DNA of 27,271 nucleotides from a virus, in IMG/VR virus record IMGVR_UViG_3300007363_000080, positions 1 through 27,271 of that record. One strand, 5' to 3'. The position numbers and the translations under genes were made by a program. The notes under the pieces were generated by a model. The model saw nothing but the letters and a program-made list of their open reading frames with translations. It was not told where the DNA came from and made no database searches. Shown here piece by piece: positions 3,125-18,765 of this stretch (positions are counted from its first letter, which is position 1; each line of letters begins with the position of its first letter).

Positions 3125-3391
3125 ATGAACGTCCAGCCCACCAACGAAAGGTATGTGTACGAGGCCGGAAGCGAGACGGAAGCCCGCACCTACCGCGTTG
3201 ACCTCCTGGCCAACGATGGGGCCGGGTGCTGCTCCTGCACCGATTTCAGCGCCCGCCGACAGCCAGCCCTACGCAATGGGGCCGTTCCGCTGACGGACGC
3301 TTGTGTATGCAAGCATCTACGTGCCGCGCACACCCACTTTCTGCGTGGTATCCTAAAAGCCCTCGCAGCCGAGGAGAACAATGGCCCGTAA
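3125..3391 (+). CDS. SWIM-type zinc-finger protein (88 aa)
   Basis: The start is the ATG at 3125 with AAGGAGG upstream at good spacing; longer forms would overlap the previous gene. The protein contains the SWIM pattern CxC ... CxH: Cys36-Ser-Cys38 in CCSCTDF and Cys62-Lys-His64 in CVCKHL, about 23 residues apart. SWIM domains bind zinc and are used in DNA or protein binding. A beta segment (YVYEAGSETEARTYRVDLL) precedes the finger, which is typical of small stand-alone SWIM proteins. Its end overlaps the start of the next HNH gene. Likely a nucleic-acid-associated accessory factor; the exact role is unknown. Confidence 0.7.
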   Translation: MNVQPTNERYVYEAGSETEARTYRVDLLANDGAGCCSCTDFSARRQPALRNGAVPLTDACVCKHLRAAHTHFLRGILKALAAEENNGP

Positions 3392-3812
3392 GACAACCCC
3401 AAAACCCCACGCGGGCGGAAAATGGACTACCTCAAGAAAATTCTCGTTTATACGAAGCGCATTAAGACGCGCCTCAGTCAGATGGCCGCCACGCGGCGCG
3501 GCAATGAAGGCGGCACAGCAACCGTACTCGGGGCCAAACAAGCGGCAGAAATGGCGCTACAAATGCGCTCAATGCGATGGGTGGTTCATGGGGAAGGAAA
3601 TCCAAGTGGATCACGTCGTCCCCGCTGGGAAGCTCCAAGATTATAGCGATTTGCCGGGGTTTGTGGAACGCCTGTTCTGCGAGGCAGATGGGCTCCGCAT
3701 CCTCTGTGACGGCTGCCATCAAATAAAGACGAACGCCGAGAGAGAGGCGCATAAACACACAGCAAGGAACACACACAATGAAAGCTCAGACACAAACCAT
3801 CTACATCCCTGA
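3381..3812 (+). CDS. HNH endonuclease (143 aa)
   Basis: Classic small phage HNH nuclease with a treble-clef metal site. CxxC at Cys62/Cys65 (CAQC), the catalytic segment VDHVVPAGKL with Asp77-His78, and a second CxxC at Cys109/Cys112 followed by His113 (CDGCHQIKTNAER) match the HNH consensus. The first 60 residues are strongly basic and probably bind DNA. The ATG lies within the last codons of the SWIM gene and the 3' end overlaps the next gene by 35 nt, so all three are translationally linked. In many phages such proteins act with terminase in DNA packaging; here the gene lies away from the virion genes, so a homing or degradative role is also possible. Confidence 0.85.
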   Translation: MARKTTPKPHAGGKWTTSRKFSFIRSALRRASVRWPPRGAAMKAAQQPYSGPNKRQKWRYKCAQCDGWFMGKEIQVDHVVPAGKLQDYSDLPGFVERLFCEADGLRILCDGCHQIKTNAEREAHKHTARNTHNESSDTNHLHP

Positions 3813-4395: not shown

Positions 4396-6108
4396 ATGAA
4401 GCCTAGAAAGTTTGTAGTGGCGTCGGACATTCACGGCATAGAGGCAGACATGCCCGCCGTGGACGCCCTGTTGGGGTTTGTGAAGGACTTCGCCCCCGAG
4501 GTAAGGGTGTTGGCAGGGGATGTATGGGACTTCGGGGCCATCCGTAACGGAGCCTCACCGGAGGAACGCGGCATCTCCATGCGGGATGACTTTGAGTGCG
4601 GGGCTACGATAGCGGACACGTTCTTTAAGGGCGGGAAGGATAATCACCTGATGCTCGGAAATCATTGCTTAGCCAAAGGCACGGATTTGCTGACAAGCAA
4701 TGGCTGGATGCCTGTTGAACAGGTGACATCCAATCACCTTGTTGCCCAATTCCGGCTGGATACAGGGGAGGTGTCCTATTCCAATCCGCTCGGAACGGTG
4801 GTTAGACATGCCGAGGAAGTGTATTCCATTGAGGGCCGGTACACGCATCAAGTGGTATCTGCGGGACATGACGTAGTGCTGAACGGGGTAAAGCATAAGG
4901 CTGCCGACCTTTACGGGCGTTTCATTAAGGAAAGCTCTATCAGGACTAGCGGCCCCAACCTGGAACCCGAATCCCCAGACGAATCCATGGCTACATGGCT
5001 AAGGGTTCTAACGTGGGTGATAATGGACGGCTGCATCGTCAACCTGAAGAAGTATAACGCCAAAACGACAAAGGCCCGCGTTCAGTTTAAGCTGTCTGTG
5101 CCCCGCAAAATCGAGGCGCTAAAGGCTTTGCTGGAGAAGGCTGGGATCAAGTACACATTCGCTCTTTGCAAGAAGACCGGGGTGAATAAGCTCCAGCCCT
5201 ATTACATCCGCATTTACGGGGATGACGCTCGCAAGATTGTGGCGGCATTGGATGGCGAGAAGCGCATCCCTGAAGGGTGGGCGTGGCTGCCCAAAGCCTA
5301 CTTCCTAACGGTGATTGATGCCATTCGGGAAACAGACGGGGCGGTGTGCTACCGGCATACAACGTGGACTACGACGGACAAGCGTAACGCCGACACCATG
5401 CAGCGTTGGGCCATTCATTGTGGCTGCGACTTTGCCATTCGAGCCACAAAGCCCAATCCAAAGGCTTTTCCCAACGGGAAACAGCAATGGAACTGTCGCT
5501 TCCGGTTTAACGCCTCCGGGCACGTCAACCAAAAGTTGAAAATCACGCGGCTGCCGTACAATGCCAACGTCTATTGCGTCACCATGCCGCTCGGGACGGT
5601 GGTTACGCGGTATGAGGGGCGTGTGGCCTTCACAGGCAACTGTGTCAGGGCTTATGACCTCTGCCATTCCGTGGACGCCGTTAGAGCCGATTTGGGGCGA
5701 AAGATGGTGGAGGACATAGGCTATGTCGCCCGCAGGAACAAAGCCCGCCTATACCCCTACGATAGCCGTCATGGGGTCTTGGAATTGGGGCACCTGAAGG
5801 TGGTACATGGCTACCACACCGGGGCGTCCGCTTGTGCCTCCCATTCCCGCATCTACGGGAACGTCATCTTTGGGCACGTCCATTCGATTGAGAGCTACCA
5901 GACGCCAGGGCTACGCCAACAGGAAGCGCGAGCCATTGGGTGCCTCTGCAAGCTGGATATGGACTACGCGGACAGGAAGACGGGGAAGCTGCGCTGGGCT
6001 CACGGGTGGGCGGCGGGCTATCTGTTTGAGGACGGCACTTACACGCTCTGGCAAATTCGGTCTATCAATGGGAGGTTTTATGCGCCAACGGGCCTCAAAG
6101 AGTATTGA
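4396..6108 (+). CDS. Metallophosphoesterase interrupted by an intein (570 aa precursor)
   Basis: Calcineurin-like metallophosphoesterase whose coding frame contains an in-frame intein. N-extein residues 1-90 carry the metal-site motifs SDIHG (Asp11, His13), GDVWD (Asp42) and GNH (88-90). C-extein residues 416-570 carry VVHGYH (His471) and GHVH (493-496). The intein occupies 91-415, directly after GNH, so the catalytic site is split in the precursor and would only be complete after splicing, giving a 245-residue enzyme. Relatives in phages are stand-alone phosphoesterases or nucleases in DNA metabolism; the substrate here is unknown. The normal Glu/Asp after GNH is replaced by Cys416, the nucleophile required by the intein. 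The 3' end overlaps the next gene by 29 nt. Confidence 0.9.
   Translation: MKPRKFVVASDIHGIEADMPAVDALLGFVKDFAPEVRVLAGDVWDFGAIRNGASPEERGISMRDDFECGATIADTFFKGGKDNHLMLGNHCLAKGTDLLTSNGWMPVEQVTSNHLVAQFRLDTGEVSYSNPLGTVVRHAEEVYSIEGRYTHQVVSAGHDVVLNGVKHKAADLYGRFIKESSIRTSGPNLEPESPDESMATWLRVLTWVIMDGCIVNLKKYNAKTTKARVQFKLSVPRKIEALKALLEKAGIKYTFALCKKTGVNKLQPYYIRIYGDDARKIVAALDGEKRIPEGWAWLPKAYFLTVIDAIRETDGAVCYRHTTWTTTDKRNADTMQRWAIHCGCDFAIRATKPNPKAFPNGKQQWNCRFRFNASGHVNQKLKITRLPYNANVYCVTMPLGTVVTRYEGRVAFTGNCVRAYDLCHSVDAVRADLGRKMVEDIGYVARRNKARLYPYDSRHGVLELGHLKVVHGYHTGASACASHSRIYGNVIFGHVHSIESYQTPGLRQQEARAIGCLCKLDMDYADRKTGKLRWAHGWAAGYLFEDGTYTLWQIRSINGRFYAPTGLKEY
4666..5640 (+). mobile_element. LAGLIDADG intein (325 aa) in metallophosphoesterase
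   Basis: The first residue is Cys91 with a block A-like start (CLAKGTDLLTSNGWMPVEQV). The block B histidine is in VSAGHDVVL. A central homing endonuclease of the LAGLIDADG/DOD type has two motifs, LTWVIMDG (205-212, Asp211) and VIDAIRETDG (306-315, Asp314). Block F/G is VYCVTMPLGTVV ... GRVAFTGN, and the +1 extein residue is Cys416. The terminal Asn415 is present; the residue before it is Gly instead of the usual His, a variation known in other inteins. All catalytic positions for splicing and both endonuclease acids are retained, so it is probably active in both. The insertion lies at a conserved active-site motif (GNH), a usual choice for inteins. The boundaries are firm because block G and the +1 Cys fit exactly. 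Confidence 0.92.
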
Positions 6109-6349
6109 CCCTTGGGCGGCAATGGACGCCTTGGTGAAGGCCAACGAGGAGCCTATGGGCGCGGAGTGGTTTACTGCTGCCGATTTTGCCGATCATTACG
6201 GGACCACCGTTGACGCCGCTCAAGCCAAGCTATCCCGGCTAACCCGCGCCGGGCAACTTGAGCGCTGGAAGGGGACGGGCCGCATCTGCCGCCGCACCCT
6301 CACCAAATACCGTCCTATCGTCGCTAAACCGCTTGACAAGCAGCGGTAG
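6080..6349 (+). CDS. Small winged-helix-like protein (89 aa)
   Basis: The start is chosen at ATG 6080, 5 nt after GGGAGG; the longer frame runs inside the metallophosphoesterase gene and is a shadow. Residues 29-65 (EWFTAADFADHYGTTVDAAQAKLSRLTRAGQLERWKG) read as a helix-turn-helix followed by a wing, as in small winged-helix DNA-binding proteins, with a basic tail. It is the last gene of the + strand arm, and the intrinsic terminator lies about 45 nt after its stop. It could be a phage regulator or a subunit that guides a nuclease; no target is known. Confidence 0.55.
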   Translation: MRQRASKSIDPWAAMDALVKANEEPMGAEWFTAADFADHYGTTVDAAQAKLSRLTRAGQLERWKGTGRICRRTLTKYRPIVAKPLDKQR

Positions 6350-6395: not shown

Positions 6396-6437
6396 CCCCT
6401 CCTTGGCTGCGTGTAGCCTTGGAGGGGTTGTTTTTTT
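6396..6437 (+). terminator. Intrinsic terminator of the + strand arm
   Basis: Stem CCCCTCC (6396-6402) pairs with GGAGGGG (6421-6427). An inner stem GGCT/AGCC (6405-6408 with 6415-6418) has a GCGTGT loop, with TT/TT unpaired between the two stems. TTGTTTTTTT follows. There is no T tract on the other side, so it should act on + strand transcripts only. Its last T is the first base of the tRNA-Arg. Confidence 0.85.
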
Positions 6438-6511
6438 GCAGGGTAGTTCAGGGGCAGAACATCGGATTTCTAATCCGGGGGTCGTTGGTTCGAGTCCAAC
6501 CCCTGCATCCA
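6437..6511 (+). tRNA. tRNA-Arg(TCT)
   Basis: Full cloverleaf: acceptor TGCAGGG/CCCTGCA; D arm GTTC/GAAC with loop AGGGGCA; anticodon stem TCGGA/TCCGG with loop TTTCTAA (anticodon TCT, reading AGA); variable GGGTC; T arm GTTGG-TTCGAGT-CCAAC; discriminator T and an encoded CCA at 6509-6511. The anticodon serves an AGA codon that is rare in many bacteria. It begins at the last T of the preceding terminator, so it must rely on readthrough, processing or a promoter embedded upstream. Confidence 0.92.
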
Positions 6512-6515
6512 ATTT

Positions 6516-6591
6516 GGCGTTGGTAGCTTAATGGACAGAGCGCCCGTGTCACAAGCTCGGGGATGCCGGTTCGAATCCGGCCCATTCGCCA
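6516..6591 (+). tRNA. Atypical tRNA-like sequence, probably tRNA-Val(CAC)
   Basis: D arm GCTT/GAGC and T arm GCCGG-TTCGAAT-CCGGC are intact. The acceptor pairs as GGCG+TGG with CCA+CGCC but contains a T against TT internal loop, giving 8 against 9 nt. The anticodon stem is irregular: in standard spacing CCCGT faces GCTCG with two mismatches, or CCCGT pairs with GC..GGG leaving a two-base TC bulge. In both readings the loop is GTCACAA, anticodon CAC. It may be a functional but unusual tRNA or a decayed one. The final A6591 fits the discriminator position. Confidence 0.55.
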
Positions 6592-6682: not shown

Positions 6683-8290
6683 CTAACGGTACGGAACCGG
6701 CCTCTGATTGGGGTCGCGGGCCATTTCCCGCCCCCCTGCCATAGCTGAAAGGCTTCCCATCGCCGCCCCTATGTCCATCGGCATTGCGGACCCGTAGCGC
6801 GGGGCCATCATTGCGTTCTGAACGGGGTTGCTCATAAGCAGGGTTTTGGCCAGCATGGGCGCGGCTACGGCTGCTCCACCGGCAGCTAAAGCCTGACCGG
6901 GGCCGCCGAAGTAAAGGCCACTGTTGGCTGCGGTAAAAGCCGCAAGCGGGTGGGCAACAGCGGCAACACGCTTTGGCTTTCCTGTAATGCCGGTGGCCTC
7001 TGCAAAGTTGGCAATGATTTCCAACTCGTCCGTGGTAATCGTCTTACCTGACTTCCGGCGTTTGGCGATAATGTCCGCCATCACAGAGCCCGACCCCTCA
7101 TTAAACGCATCCTCAATCAAATGCGTCTTGGCAATCGTTTCTCGGGCTTGCTGGAAGGCGGGGATTAGGTCGGCACGCCCCTTGTCCTTTAATTCTTGGT
7201 CAAGCGCGCTCTTAAACCCCTCCATCTTCTTATCCCACTCCTTAGCCGCATCGCTGGCAGCCACGGTGCCGTTGCGGTCGTGTTCCAGCCAGAAAGCCCT
7301 AGAGCGGTCACGCGCCTCTTTGAAGCCTTGCAACGCATCTGCCGCTTTGCTGCTCACAGAAGCTACGTCCCCGTATACCGCGCCCTGAGCGTCACGAATA
7401 GCTTTCAGGGCTGGGAGATTGACAACATCGTTCTCGGCTAGGCCAATAGCCTTGCGAGCAAGGGCCAGGTTAACGCTGCGGGCCGTTGCTTCCGTGGCGG
7501 CAACAGTCTGAGGCCCACCCGCCAGCCACTCAAGGGCGCGAGCTACAGCCGGAGCATCTGAAAGCTGAGAGGGGGCAATCTTATATCCCGCCTGACGAGC
7601 CGCCGCAAGGGTTTGATCCCGCACGGCATTGTCAATCTCATGGCGAGTGGCTTTAATAACAGAAGCTCCCGTGTCCATTGCCCGGCCAATCCCGGCCCCG
7701 GCAACGCCTCCGCCGACAGCCATCATAGCCTGTCCGACGTTCGGAAGCTGCTTGTTCTCTCCGTATGTTTCAATGGCCATGCCCGCAAGGTTGGCGGCTC
7801 CCTGCTTCACTCCCTCTTTAGCAACAGCTTTAATGCCAGCCTTGGCCATAGGAGCGCCCGGCACCATAGAGGCAACGCCCGCGCCCATAGCCTCTGACAC
7901 AGAAAAACCCGGCCTTTCTCCGCTAGCGCGCTGTCTAAGCTGGGATAGTGCATTGCCGCCCGCCCCGCCAATGAATCCGCCTACGGGTACCGAAAGGCCC
8001 AAGGTGGGACCGCTGAGCATTGGAAGCGCACCAACAGCCTGCCCCACGGCCCCGCCGCCACCCTCAAGCGCCATATCCGTAGCAATCTTATCGCCCTTGG
8101 ACATGGAGCGCGGATAATCCGCAGCCACCTTGTCCATTTGCGCCTGAATGTCGGGAGAATACCTGGACCCAGCCCCGCCACCGGAAGCCAATGACGACAG
8201 GCTTTCCATCTCCGCCATCTCCGCATCCGTAAGTTTCCCCTTGGACGTAAGCTCGTCCAAGCGGCCAATCTGTTTGTCGGAAAGGGCCAT
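6683..8290 (-). CDS. Putative internal virion / DNA ejection protein (535 aa)
   Basis: Last gene of the virion arm. Residues 1-50 are helical and acidic. Residues 75-210 are very rich in Gly and Ala with hydrophobic stretches (GGGGAVGQAVGALPML, VPVGGFIGGAGG, MMAVGGGVAGAGIG) that could insert in membranes. Residues 215-430 form a long helical region, and another Gly/Ala-rich part lies near 445-520. This composition and the position after the tail genes match internal proteins that podoviruses eject with the DNA to cross the cell envelope. No muramidase or protease motif is visible. Its ATG overlaps the stop of the upstream gene by one base (TAATG). The role is inferred from composition and order, not from a recognised domain. 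Confidence 0.65.
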   Translation of the reverse strand: MALSDKQIGRLDELTSKGKLTDAEMAEMESLSSLASGGGAGSRYSPDIQAQMDKVAADYPRSMSKGDKIATDMALEGGGGAVGQAVGALPMLSGPTLGLSVPVGGFIGGAGGNALSQLRQRASGERPGFSVSEAMGAGVASMVPGAPMAKAGIKAVAKEGVKQGAANLAGMAIETYGENKQLPNVGQAMMAVGGGVAGAGIGRAMDTGASVIKATRHEIDNAVRDQTLAAARQAGYKIAPSQLSDAPAVARALEWLAGGPQTVAATEATARSVNLALARKAIGLAENDVVNLPALKAIRDAQGAVYGDVASVSSKAADALQGFKEARDRSRAFWLEHDRNGTVAASDAAKEWDKKMEGFKSALDQELKDKGRADLIPAFQQARETIAKTHLIEDAFNEGSGSVMADIIAKRRKSGKTITTDELEIIANFAEATGITGKPKRVAAVAHPLAAFTAANSGLYFGGPGQALAAGGAAVAAPMLAKTLLMSNPVQNAMMAPRYGSAMPMDIGAAMGSLSAMAGGREMARDPNQRPVPYR

Positions 8291-9696
8291 TATTTGCGCT
8301 CCCAGCCGTTTGCCGTTTTAACGTACGTCACTCCGCCAATAACCTTGGTATCACCGCCCGCAGCCTCAGTTTTTGCCTCGGGCTTGTATGGCTCAACGGC
8401 CTGACGCTGCTCATATCCCGCCTGCGAATAGCGCCCAACAACGTGACGGTTGTAAATCTGTAGGTTCTGCTTGTAGGAGTTCATCTTCTCAGACAGAAGC
8501 TCCTGAACCGTCTCCTGAACAACCTCGGGGTTGGTGAGGATGCTGTTAATGTCGCCACCAATGGCATTGATAAGGCGGGAAGCATCGTTCTCCGTCAGAA
8601 CGCCCGGCCCCAGCACCGTAGTACGGAGCGCACCAAGCAAGCGTTCTTTGCGGGCGGAACTTATGCCCATAGCCTTTTCCTCTTCGCTCAAAGGCTCCTG
8701 CGTGACGGATGTTTTCACGGCAGCGGAAATGCGCGTTCCAATCTTCTCAATACCCTGCGGAAGCCCGCCCGCCGTCTTCGCATAGCGGTTGAGAGCTTTA
8801 ATGCTGTTCTCCTGATCAACAATCGTATCGGACAGCTTCTTCATGTCCGCTTCCTGCATGAAGACATTTGCATCCGAAGCCGTAGTGGGCTTGAAACGCG
8901 ACATATCCAAGGGCTGGAATTTGCCTTTGTCGTCAACCATGCCGACGCGCCCGCTGCTTGCCTCGCGGGACGCCTGAACGGGGCTACCACCGGTTTCTCG
9001 GTCAACGAATACGCCCGCGTTGAAATACTTCTCGGCGGGATCGCGCCCGCCCTGAGCAATCAATTCGGCACGACGCTTGGCCACCGCAACGGGGTCGTTT
9101 GTGTCGAGCGTTCCAGCCTTTCCTTGGCTTGCAATGACAGCCTCGGTGTCCCGCATTGCCGCCGTAGGCTGCAAACTAGCTGGCCCCGCCGCCAGATCGA
9201 CAGCCTTTGCCAGAATGTTAATGTCCGTACCGCCACTAGAGCGGTAAATCTGCATTGCCTTCGGAATGTTCAGCGTGCCGTCTGGATTGAAAGACGCCTC
9301 TACCGCCCCGCCCGCAACCTGCATGGCTTTAACCAAGGCATCGTCCTTGGCTTTTTGGGCCTGTATCTGCTGAACATGCACGCCGCCTTGAACAATCGTC
9401 TCAAACTTCTTGGAAGTTTGATCGGCAAACCCAAGGAAATCACGGGGGGCCATGCTCTCCTGAGCGGATTTAATCTGCGCGGAGAAGCCTTCTGGAACAA
9501 TCCCCAGCTTCTCCAGATTGCTAAAGGCACTTTGTAGGGCGCGGCCCCGCCCATTGGCCTCGGCGATGATGTTCTGCTCCTTCTCCTTGCGGGCTCCGTA
9601 TTGCTCAATGCCGGAGGCTACACCCTGTCCGAATTGGGCAATGCCCTGCCCTAAGAGCTGACCGCTGATGTCTTGTGTGCCGGGGTTGTAGGGCAT
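8290..9696 (-). CDS. Putative internal virion protein (468 aa)
   Basis: Mostly helical soluble protein in the middle of three consecutive large proteins at the end of the virion arm. The N-terminal 40 residues are Gln/Gly-rich (GQLLGQGIAQFGQGVASGIEQ), and long amphipathic helices follow (45-130, 265-410). The C-terminus ends in a small beta motif (DTKVIGGVTYVKTANGWERK), a common tail on phage structural proteins. No enzymatic motif is seen. Tight spacing (2 nt after the upstream stop region, 1-nt overlap downstream) shows co-translation with both neighbours. It most likely belongs to the ejection set, like the internal core proteins of T7- or P22-type phages; this is inference from position, size and composition. 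Confidence 0.6.
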   Translation of the reverse strand: MPYNPGTQDISGQLLGQGIAQFGQGVASGIEQYGARKEKEQNIIAEANGRGRALQSAFSNLEKLGIVPEGFSAQIKSAQESMAPRDFLGFADQTSKKFETIVQGGVHVQQIQAQKAKDDALVKAMQVAGGAVEASFNPDGTLNIPKAMQIYRSSGGTDINILAKAVDLAAGPASLQPTAAMRDTEAVIASQGKAGTLDTNDPVAVAKRRAELIAQGGRDPAEKYFNAGVFVDRETGGSPVQASREASSGRVGMVDDKGKFQPLDMSRFKPTTASDANVFMQEADMKKLSDTIVDQENSIKALNRYAKTAGGLPQGIEKIGTRISAAVKTSVTQEPLSEEEKAMGISSARKERLLGALRTTVLGPGVLTENDASRLINAIGGDINSILTNPEVVQETVQELLSEKMNSYKQNLQIYNRHVVGRYSQAGYEQRQAVEPYKPEAKTEAAGGDTKVIGGVTYVKTANGWERK

Positions 9697-9698
9697 GA

Positions 9699-11366
9699 TT
9701 ATCTAGGACCATATACGCTTGTAACAAATGCTTGGCGACTTGCATTGTTCCCATCGTCAAAAGGATCAGAACCAGCGGCGAATGCAGGGCCATTACTCAC
9801 GCTCCGCGCCTGCATATATGAAGGTAGATTGGTAGGTTGACTAATGCCAAGCAGATTTGTATTTGTGCTTCCAACTGAGTAGTTAAATGACGCTGGGGCA
9901 GCACCAGCGCCCCCTCCCCCGCCGCCGAAGATGCTCCCAAGTCCCGATCCGACAGCCGCGCCAATAGAAGGAACGCCAAGCAGCGCACCGCCAATCGTGC
10001 CAATGGCTCCCAAAGCCCCGCCCAGAAGCCCGCTGGAACGATTCTTAGCGGCGTTCTGTGCCGCCATTTCCGCATTGTAGCGCGTCATGGCTACATCGTT
10101 GGCAATGCCGCTCGTCTGCCCAAAATAGCTGCCGAGGTCGGGGGAATACCCCGTCGCCGCACCCAACAGCCCGCCCGCCATAGCAGGAGCACCAGACGTA
10201 GCCCCTAAGAGCCGCGTAGGGTCATAGGCGGCGTTCTGGTAGCTCCCCGCAAGATTGAGGGCATAACCCCTGTCCTGCTGCTGTTGCTGCTGCGCCAACT
10301 GAGAATTGGCCAACGCAGCCGCGTTCTGCTGCTGGGCCGTAAATTGCATGGCCTGATTTTGCGAGGCCGCGTTGAATTGCCCGGCTTGGTTGTACGCCCC
10401 CTGATTGGCCATCCCCGCTTGCAAATTAGCCCCCTGATTGGCCCCCTGTCGTCCAAGCTCCTGCCCGTACACCCCCGTAGCAAACCCGCGAGAGGCCGCC
10501 AAATCCTGGTTGTACGCATTGCCAAGCTGTGCAGCCAAGGAAAGGTCTTCCGTCATGCGGGAACGCTCTGCCCCAATCCTGTTCCCAATCTCCGCCGCAA
10601 TAGCCGGATTGGACATTTCCAGCCCACGGGCGGCAAATGCCTCCCGCGTGCCCTGCTGCACGTTTCTAAGCTCATTGGCCGTCAGAGCCCCGTTGCTATT
10701 GGCAAAGGCCGTAGCACGCCCCAAAAGGGCTTGGCTGGCCGCATTAGGGCCTGCCTGCATAGCCTGCCCATAGAGCGAACCCCCCAGCATCCCCTGCTGG
10801 AGCTGGTCCGCCGTCAGGTTGGCCATCGGGCTGTACGTCGCCGCATTGTACCCCTGCGCCGAGAAAGGCTGGTAGGGGGTCGCACCACCGAGAGCCGAAG
10901 CCCCGCCAAGGGTGGCGAATAGCTCGGGATTGGACGCACGGTAGGCATCGGAATAGCCCTTGCCGAGAGTGGTAACGTCAGAGAGATTGCCCGTCCGTAC
11001 AGCCGTATTAGCCCCCGTTTCGAGGCCAGAGGCGACATTCGTAAGCCCGCCTACGGTGTCAGCTACACCGCCGCCACGGGGAACGGAGGCCGGGTCAATG
11101 TACGTCGCATCCTGAATGGCCAATTCCAGCCATTGCGAGGGGTCTTGCCCGGAGGCTTTGACGTTGTTATACGGCTCTGCAAACTCGGGGTGCGCGGCAA
11201 GAAACGCCTGCGTATCAATGCGGCCAAGGGCAAGCTGCGAAGCATTGCCCAGGCGCCCGCCCCCAATAGCTCCCTCCGCGCCGACGCCTTGGTAGAGGCC
11301 AGCCCCCACCTGCCCCAGCCCGCCAACACTGTTCTGAATGATGCTGTCGAAGTTAAGGGAGGGCAT
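9699..11366 (-). CDS. Putative internal virion protein, Ala/Gln/Gly-rich (555 aa)
   Basis: First of three large proteins after the tail fibre. The N-terminal part includes the segment FLAAHPEFAEPYNNVKASGQDPSQW, which resembles a short repeat unit seen in phage internal proteins. The centre (about 310-365) is extremely rich in Gln, Asn and Ala with a Gln run (AQQQQQQDRG), probably a coiled or flexible rod. The C-terminus (445-500) is a Gly-rich hydrophobic stretch (LLGGALGAIGTIGGALLG, IFGGGGGGAG) like a fusion or membrane segment. Proteins of this style are found next to the tail in podoviruses. I assign it to the DNA ejection or internal core group; a tail needle-type role is an alternative. 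Confidence 0.6.
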   Translation of the reverse strand: MPSLNFDSIIQNSVGGLGQVGAGLYQGVGAEGAIGGGRLGNASQLALGRIDTQAFLAAHPEFAEPYNNVKASGQDPSQWLELAIQDATYIDPASVPRGGGVADTVGGLTNVASGLETGANTAVRTGNLSDVTTLGKGYSDAYRASNPELFATLGGASALGGATPYQPFSAQGYNAATYSPMANLTADQLQQGMLGGSLYGQAMQAGPNAASQALLGRATAFANSNGALTANELRNVQQGTREAFAARGLEMSNPAIAAEIGNRIGAERSRMTEDLSLAAQLGNAYNQDLAASRGFATGVYGQELGRQGANQGANLQAGMANQGAYNQAGQFNAASQNQAMQFTAQQQNAAALANSQLAQQQQQQDRGYALNLAGSYQNAAYDPTRLLGATSGAPAMAGGLLGAATGYSPDLGSYFGQTSGIANDVAMTRYNAEMAAQNAAKNRSSGLLGGALGAIGTIGGALLGVPSIGAAVGSGLGSIFGGGGGGAGAAPASFNYSVGSTNTNLLGISQPTNLPSYMQARSVSNGPAFAAGSDPFDDGNNASRQAFVTSVYGPR

Positions 11367-17114: not shown

Positions 17115-17374
17115 AGCGCCTCCTCTGGAGAAGCCTCCGGTAGCATCACCGTCCATTCCCCGTCAGCCGCCTCCACAAGCGGAAGCGCCTCCGTCTCCGG
17201 GTCGCCCAGCACTTCCGCGCACACCGGCTCCCACAGGATGCCGCAGCGGTCGCCGTCAGTGTAGATGCCAGACCAAGCGCCGCAGGGGTTGCCGTCCTTG
17301 TCGCGGATGTAGGAGGCGATCAGGCTATCAACCACCTCGGCATGGAGTTCGTTGTCGCACACTAGGATGGTCAT
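17111..17374 (-). CDS. Hypothetical acidic protein (87 aa)
   Basis: Small acidic protein (many Asp/Glu, few Lys) between the LamG-type fibre gene and the papain-like lipoprotein gene, overlapping both (ATGA at the start, GTGA at the end). Three cysteines are spread over the first half (VCDNE, NPCGAW, RCGILWEPVC is close to a Cys pair). No signal, membrane segment or known domain. It could be a small assembly factor; nothing in the sequence decides it. Confidence 0.55.
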   Translation of the reverse strand: MTILVCDNELHAEVVDSLIASYIRDKDGNPCGAWSGIYTDGDRCGILWEPVCAEVLGDPETEALPLVEAADGEWTVMLPEASPEEAL

Positions 17375-18765
17375 GGCGTTACCCCCCAGCGGCGCATCTC
17401 ATAGGCCGCGATCCGCAGTTGCAGAGCGTCAGCGTCGGCGGCGGAACGGAGCAGGGCTTCACTCCAAGTGATGTTGCTTGAATTACCGACATTACCATCC
17501 GCGCCAACCGTAAAGCCACTAGCCGCAGTCGTTCCCGTGGTCCGCGTAATAGCCGCAGAAATGTTTTTTCGCTGAGAGGATGACGATCCGCTGTAAACGG
17601 TGGAGAGAACGGCCCGCACCCCAACCGTCATGTCGGTAACACCAGCAACGTCAGGAGTACCGCCCAAAAAGTTCAGATTGGGCGCAGACGTTTTTTGGTA
17701 ACAGCGCATATTGTTTTGCGTGTTTCCATCCCAAACGGTGTCGCCGTCCGTAAAGCCCACCTGACTGCCGGTGAAATAGACGCTCTCCGGTTGGCTAAGA
17801 GAGAACGCCGCGCTCTTCAGGTAGTCGTTGCTGCCGTCGAACGTCGCGATGTTGTACCCGCCGCTGACGCTAAATATCGGCTGATTAGCCTGCACCCCCT
17901 GATACAGGTCTCGCGCCCCGTGAATTCGGGCGGGAAGGGCGATGGCGGATTGCGTCACCGTCACCGTCTGTCCGCTCGTCGCCGTGAACGACGTGGCAAA
18001 CTTCGCGGCGAGGCCGAAATCCACGAACACCACGTTGCTGCTCTGTATCGTGCCCGCCGCGTTCGCGATGATTTCAGCCGCAGAAAGTACCTTGGAATAC
18101 ACCGCCGCACGGTAGATCGCGCCCGGTTGTGTTTCGACCCCTGAGTTGAAGCCGATATTTGTGCTCGTGCTGGTGATCGTGTCAGACCAATCGGGCGGGG
18201 TGCCGCCTGTCGTCTCAGAACCGGAAAGCGTTGCTGTTACTCCCGCCGCCGTGGTGACGTAGGCTGCGAACGTCGTGCCGGTCCTCGTAAACGTCACGGT
18301 GACAACTTGCCCAGTATACGTGCTTGAGAAATTAGCTACCGACAGTCTCCGAAAGTCGGATGTGGTGGCCCCGAGCAAATTAAACTCTATCTCGCCAGAA
18401 CTTCTAGTTTCACAAAAAAATGCTCTGCTTACGTTGTTCGTCGACGCACTACTGGACAGCGACATCACGCCAGCTGTGGTCGCAGACAAAGCCGCTTGAA
18501 ACGTCAGGCTTACACTCACGTCTCCTGTGCCAATAGCCGTGCCCGTCGTCAGTGAACAACGATTGCCCGTAACCTGTGGAAGTAGCAGAACATTCACCGC
18601 GCTGTTCCTGCTCCGGTCCGCCACGTAGTAGAGGCGATTGCTGCCGTCGATCAGGTAGGCGGAGTCGGAGGCAGACCCCGACAACGAATACACCGCCGCA
18701 TTATCAGCCAGCGTGTACGGGCTGAATCCACCCCCAAACAATGCTGCCTGTCGCGGGCTTGGCAT
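17371..18765 (-). CDS. Tail fibre/spike with two LamG-like domains (464 aa)
   Basis: The N-terminus (MPSPRQAALFGGGFSPYTLADN) is a typical short leader of phage structural proteins. Two concanavalin A/LamG-like units are visible. The first covers about 80-245 and ends with the diagnostic GAIYRAAVYSKVLSAAEIIANA (LamG closing strand and helix). The second covers about 295-460 (ANQPIFSVSGGYNIATFDGSNDYLKSAAF ... ITWSEALLRSAADADALQLRIAAYEMRRWG). Such domains bind sugars on host surfaces. Position after the adaptor block fits a tail fibre or spike. The stop overlaps the next ATG. Confidence 0.7.
   Translation of the reverse strand: MPSPRQAALFGGGFSPYTLADNAAVYSLSGSASDSAYLIDGSNRLYYVADRSRNSAVNVLLLPQVTGNRCSLTTGTAIGTGDVSVSLTFQAALSATTAGVMSLSSSASTNNVSRAFFCETRSSGEIEFNLLGATTSDFRRLSVANFSSTYTGQVVTVTFTRTGTTFAAYVTTAAGVTATLSGSETTGGTPPDWSDTITSTSTNIGFNSGVETQPGAIYRAAVYSKVLSAAEIIANAAGTIQSSNVVFVDFGLAAKFATSFTATSGQTVTVTQSAIALPARIHGARDLYQGVQANQPIFSVSGGYNIATFDGSNDYLKSAAFSLSQPESVYFTGSQVGFTDGDTVWDGNTQNNMRCYQKTSAPNLNFLGGTPDVAGVTDMTVGVRAVLSTVYSGSSSSQRKNISAAITRTTGTTAASGFTVGADGNVGNSSNITWSEALLRSAADADALQLRIAAYEMRRWGVTP

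Follow-up and report, generated by a model that had tools for sequence, protein, structure and literature searches.

Inteins are usually described as being removed without trace. The phage gene analysed here raises two questions that become testable at such a locus: how an intein can enter a site where the host protein offers no Cys, Ser or Thr at the +1 position, and whether this carries a cost for the spliced enzyme. The window, i.e., the whole analysed stretch of 27,271 bases from a virus record, encodes on the plus strand a 570-residue precursor (positions 4396–6108), which is a metallophosphoesterase (MPE) with an in-frame intein. Homologous precursors, about 74% identical, occur in three IMG/VR contigs (L001–L003). 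The N-extein (4396–4665, 90 residues) carries the metal motifs SDIHG (DxH), GDVWD and LGNH; the intein (4666–5640) spans 325 residues from Cys1 to Asn325; and the C-extein (5641–6108, 155 residues) contributes the metal motifs VHGYH and GHVH. With slashes marking the intein ends, the precursor reads ...LMLGNH/CLAKGTDLLTSNGW...VAFTGN/CVRAYDL... Residue 91 is Cys (TGC, 4666–4668), residue 415 is Asn (AAC, 5638–5640) and residue 416, the +1 residue, is Cys (TGT, 5641–5643). The boundaries proposed in the initial annotation hold to the base, as does the 245-residue length of the spliced host protein (the precursor minus the intein).

The splicing blocks named in that annotation were all present, and 13 homologous inteins aligned end to end. 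Block A (CLAKGTDLLTSNGW, 4666–4707) begins with the nucleophile Cys1, which is found in 12 of the 13 aligned relatives and is replaced by Ser in L035. Block B (QVVSAGHDVV, 4852–4881, with the core VVSAGHDVV) contains the SxxH signature as SAGH, and its His68 is invariant. Blocks F and G lie together at 5569–5640 (VYCVTMPLGTVVTRYEGRVAFTGN), with block F reading VYCVTMPLGTVVTRYEG and block G VAFTGN/C. The C-terminal Asn325 is invariant, and every precursor has Cys, Thr or Ser at +1. Together with the Hint fold of the predicted model, these residues are those of a class 1 intein. The penultimate residue is Gly324, invariant among the relatives; a penultimate His is usual in inteins, being common but not obligatory.

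Both LAGLIDADG motifs are also in place, at 4996–5031 (WLRVLTWVIMDG, core LRVLTWVIMDG, Asp121) and 5305–5340 (LTVIDAIRETDG, core FLTVIDAIRETDG, Asp224), and both catalytic Asp residues, as expected of a double-motif homing endonuclease, are nearly invariant among the relatives. The AlphaFold2 model of the intein, built from the 13 homologues, had a pLDDT of 86 and a pTM of 0.86. A Foldseek search with this model placed the TliVMA, PhoVMA, PI-SceI and PI-PfuI inteins on top (best E 1.6e-14), and the fold matched I-DmoI and PI-SceI. By sequence, the only solved structures matched were the AceL NrdHF and Mtu RecA inteins, and the NCBIfam search gave no hit. A match to phrog_32482 ("PhoH-like") reflects an intein-bearing PhoH and not host homology, and weak Pfam matches to GH127 and Argos were dismissed as chance. 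The element is a genuine and probably active LAGLIDADG-type intein.

One could argue for a class-3-like route with Cys304 of block F as the first nucleophile, because this Cys and the Thr preceding the penultimate residue (FTGN) recall two members of the WCT triplet, and because the nearest solved splicing domain, that of the AceL NrdHF intein (Z 19.1 in the structure comparison), belongs to class 3. Nevertheless, there is no Trp at or near block B, Cys1 is retained throughout the family with a single Ser, and the block F Cys is missing in the Barbavirus, ANB28 and L035 relatives; such a route is very unlikely. The L035 intein (L035:2986–3939), which has Ser at both position 1 and +1, has also lost the catalytic Asp of its LAGLIDADG motifs (IMGAT, HTYGS) and, by its sequence, appears to be an ageing copy.

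All 38 aligned relatives retain the host motifs DxH, GD, GNH, H(G) and GHxH without change, and the spliced 245 residues contain DxH, GDxxD, GNH, HGYH and GHVH, the motif set of calcineurin-like MPEs. In the model of the whole precursor, the exteins superposed on PolD DP1, an MPE-fold nuclease, with Z 14.4 over 203 residues. The Pfam Metallophos matches of the window protein (E 0.086) and of the intein-free L008 protein (E 0.0053), as well as the LAGLIDADG_3 match of the intein (E 0.064), fall below the cut-offs, so it is motifs, fold and relatives that carry the MPE and endonuclease assignments. The MPE profile retrieved only a marginal MJ0936 among solved structures, and a tblastn search of annotated phages with the spliced window protein gave no match. 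As had been proposed, the intein divides the active site between the third and fourth metal motifs, directly after GNH. Since the GNH motif is interrupted, no complete MPE metal site would exist before splicing.

Intein-free alleles were found in the window's own clade. In L008 and L009 the MPE gene runs uninterrupted through the site, as GNH/DVRIFDL and GNH/DVRAYDL, respectively, and nothing in them aligns with residues 91–415, an alignment that would have spoken against an intein. L001 and L008 share 88% DNA identity in the N-extein and 87% in the C-extein, the entire 987-bp intein being present in L001 alone; in a blastn comparison of L002 with L008, the alignment breaks exactly at the intein ends. 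The empty-site homologues and the fold together rule out insertion of an ordinary MPE domain. The presence and absence alleles are consistent with homing at an intein-free site.

The exteins of L001 and L008 gave dN of about 0.04 and dS of about 0.6 (dN/dS about 0.06). Exteins and intein are under purifying selection, which for the exteins indicates that the enzyme is still used. This bears on whether the intein could be splicing-dead or slow, acting as a regulatory or inactivating insert. Two points speak for this: the insertion adjoins the metal-ligand His90, and Gly rather than His occupies the penultimate position. Yet all splicing residues are conserved under purifying selection, the exteins of the intein alleles are likewise constrained, and a phage intein with a penultimate Gly at the homologous site splices completely and is slowed by the change of this Gly to His (PMC5050341). 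We regard a dead or slow intein as very improbable.

The usual, canonical MPE motif is GNH[D/E], with an acidic residue after GNH, and the predicted spliced product has Cys there. GNHE is listed among the MPE signature motifs (PMC5454105). The extein profile retrieved 71 loci; among these, Asp (GAT or GAC) followed GNH in 59 of 59 distinct intein-free proteins, and Cys in all three intein alleles. Of the two search patterns, one demanded either Cys or Asp at the residue following GNH and the other placed no constraint on it, so that the count was not biased against Cys. With Cys at +1 in place of Asp, the spliced enzyme would read GNHC.

The same type of difference recurred among the relatives. 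In close pairs, the intein allele and the intein-free allele had Cys and Asp both in the window's clade and in the Barbaviruses. Among more distant relatives, the pairs were Cys/Glu (L031), Cys/Arg (L033), Cys/Phe (ANB28) and Ser/Leu (mycobacteriophages), and in the L024 type Thr was present in both. From these comparisons, the nucleophile is usually not native to the host family. In at least two phage groups, comparison of intein-bearing with closely related intein-free alleles ties invasion to the replacement of one residue of an enzyme signature motif.

A possible source of the +1 codon was visible in the Barbaviruses. The intein-bearing L005 and the intein-free L130 are 99.97% identical over 3,002 bp, ending 18–20 bp before the insertion; identity then drops to 55% in the final 20 bp (L005:3002–3021 versus L130:4227–4246) and is 65% in the first 60 bp after it. 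The tract is one-sided, in that identity stays low for several hundred bases rightward and is high again only further downstream. This is the pattern expected if the intein and its right flank, including the +1 codon, came together from a more distant donor. L001 and L008 showed no asymmetric tract of this kind in their exteins; the co-conversion pattern was found only in the Barbaviruses, the window's own clade having no close enough pair. The Asp-to-Cys change could have come before or after the arrival of the intein. In the haloarchaeal MCM-d intein, Ser is always present at +1 in invaded alleles, mostly Pro is found in uninvaded ones, and co-conversion was invoked (PMC10643990). That case resembles ours in having the nucleophile only in invaded alleles; it differs in that the replaced Pro is variable and lies outside any enzyme signature motif.

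Alternatively, a point mutation in the host could have produced the Cys first, with the intein then inserting before a ready nucleophile. Inteins typically precede a Cys, Ser or Thr residue (PMC3359363), and a native +1 Thr is possible in the L024-type MPEs, of which the relative L109 reads GNHETAS. Against a prior host Cys stand the 59 intein-free relatives, none of which has Cys, the two base changes needed from GAT or GAC to TGT, and the recurrence of a non-native +1 residue in Barbaviruses, L031, L033, ANB28 and mycobacteriophages. We therefore consider an earlier host mutation unlikely, and favour import of the codon with the intein.

We infer the following course of events. Cys1 would attack the His90-Cys1 bond, the thioester would be resolved by Cys+1, and Asn325 would cyclise, joining the exteins as GNH-C-VRAYDL. 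The endonuclease would cut intein-free MPE genes close to the GNH codons, and repair from the intein allele would copy the intein together with adjoining DNA, the +1 Cys codon included; as this flank is copied too, the nucleophile would travel with the intein. The mature enzyme would then retain Cys at the GNH[D/E] position otherwise held by a conserved Asp, and relatives of the intein would have spread at the GNH motif through divergent phage MPE families. We hold it very likely that the locus is, as described, a phage calcineurin-like MPE with its GNH motif interrupted by a class-1-type, double-motif LAGLIDADG intein, whose homing and co-conversion brought Cys+1 and which spread through divergent MPE families.

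The spread is suggested by the hosts of the related inteins. Search patterns internal to the intein, and hence blind to the host, yielded 17 viral IMG/VR contigs in all; the host was an MPE in 17 of 17, with the intein placed after GNH or GNH[D/E], and the exteins were often without detectable likeness. Between the window and the Barbaviruses, the inteins align over their full length at 32% identity (E 8.7e-54), whereas the exteins are not significantly similar (E 0.076). Comparison of the window with fENko, L025, L028, L032 and L033 gave the same picture, the inteins being alike and the exteins lacking significant similarity. Most simply, the sequences suggest that the intein has moved repeatedly from one divergent MPE gene to another, always at this motif. 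A search of 84,980 bacterial and archaeal genomes with the intein profile gave 43 pattern matches, none of which was confirmed.

Among annotated phages, the site GNH/C is shared by the Barbaviruses and by Klebsiella phage fENko-Kae01. The "phosphoesterase" gp070 of the Barbaviruses (Rheinheimera phages) has the same GNH/C...N/C arrangement, and its intein-free sisters read GNHD; it belongs to an MPE subfamily other than that of the window gene, and it is not annotated as containing an intein. In fENko-Kae01, a jumbo phage, the "hypothetical protein" ENKO_296 (L133:682–2259) is an unannotated MPE-intein precursor, again GNH/C...N/C with an intein 35% identical to ours, but of the Barbavirus-type MPE subfamily. 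Stenotrophomonas phages ANB28 and BUCTxx99 carry their MPE intein one codon later (GNHE/), with Cys at +1 where relatives have Phe, and the catalytic LAGLIDADG Asp residues are lost, as seen for both motifs in ANB28 (L006:2271–3245); in BUCTxx99 the annotation of the gene mentions a LAGLIDADG homing endonuclease and nothing else, which hides the phosphoesterase. A further public but uncharacterised protein, A0A6J7XD07 from an uncultured Caudovirales member, is a full-length structural match (558 residues, 42% identity).

The initial annotation suggested that a phosphoesterase host might be new; this is mostly known. Mycobacteriophage RDF proteins carry an MPE intein next to a conserved MPE motif, with a penultimate Gly, and its splicing was demonstrated in E. 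coli (PMC5050341); these MPE-hosted inteins are also treated in PMC12613952. We compared the Bxb1 RefSeq, Adahisdi gp51 and Ichabod gp54 sequences, which stand in for the Bethlehem gp51 type. Like the window intein, this type contains LAGLIDADG, sits at the GNH motif, and has a penultimate Gly, Cys1 and a C-terminal Asn. It differs in lying one codon later (GNHD/ in Adahisdi and Ichabod, GNH/ in the window), in having Ser at +1 and a poor first LAGLIDADG motif, and in being only about 21% identical to ours. The ANB28 inteins are equally distant, which makes membership of both in a narrow family less sure. In the intein tree the GNH/C inteins did not all group together; as deep support was poor and long branches met, we make no claim for a repeated origin of this register.

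What appears to be new here, on the known background of phage MPE inteins, is a nucleophile that was apparently imported and the altered signature motif that goes with it. In the open-access papers searched we found no report of the Barbavirus inteins, nor of the GNH/C position with its Asp/Cys difference, which is weak evidence of novelty. It seems somewhat more probable than otherwise that a phage intein lineage has specialised in the MPE GNH motif in otherwise unrelated sequences, carrying its own +1 codon by co-conversion, with one register permanently swapping the acid of GNH[D/E] for Cys in an enzyme still under selection. The comparisons also place a single intein family at one shared structural motif of divergent proteins, and several of these precursors are unannotated in public phage genomes.

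Several features of the window around the precursor gene were also observed. Four long ORFs of 464–555 residues (6683–11366 and 17371–18765, both on the minus strand) lie among structural genes; none matched PHROGs and three of the four also lacked a Pfam match. A structural protein of the window, searched for in five related contigs, gave no match. A small ORF (6080–6349, MRQRASKSIDPWAAMDALVK...) starts within the end of the MPE gene in another frame and apparently overlaps its stop codon. Just 3' of the MPE gene, at the switch in gene orientation, are two adjacent phage tRNAs, tRNA-Arg(tct) and tRNA-Cys(aca) (6437–6591). Finally, an HNH endonuclease (phrog_1985, E 4e-27) is encoded at 3381–3812, with the precursor gene following 584 bp further downstream; it is a second likely mobile nuclease.
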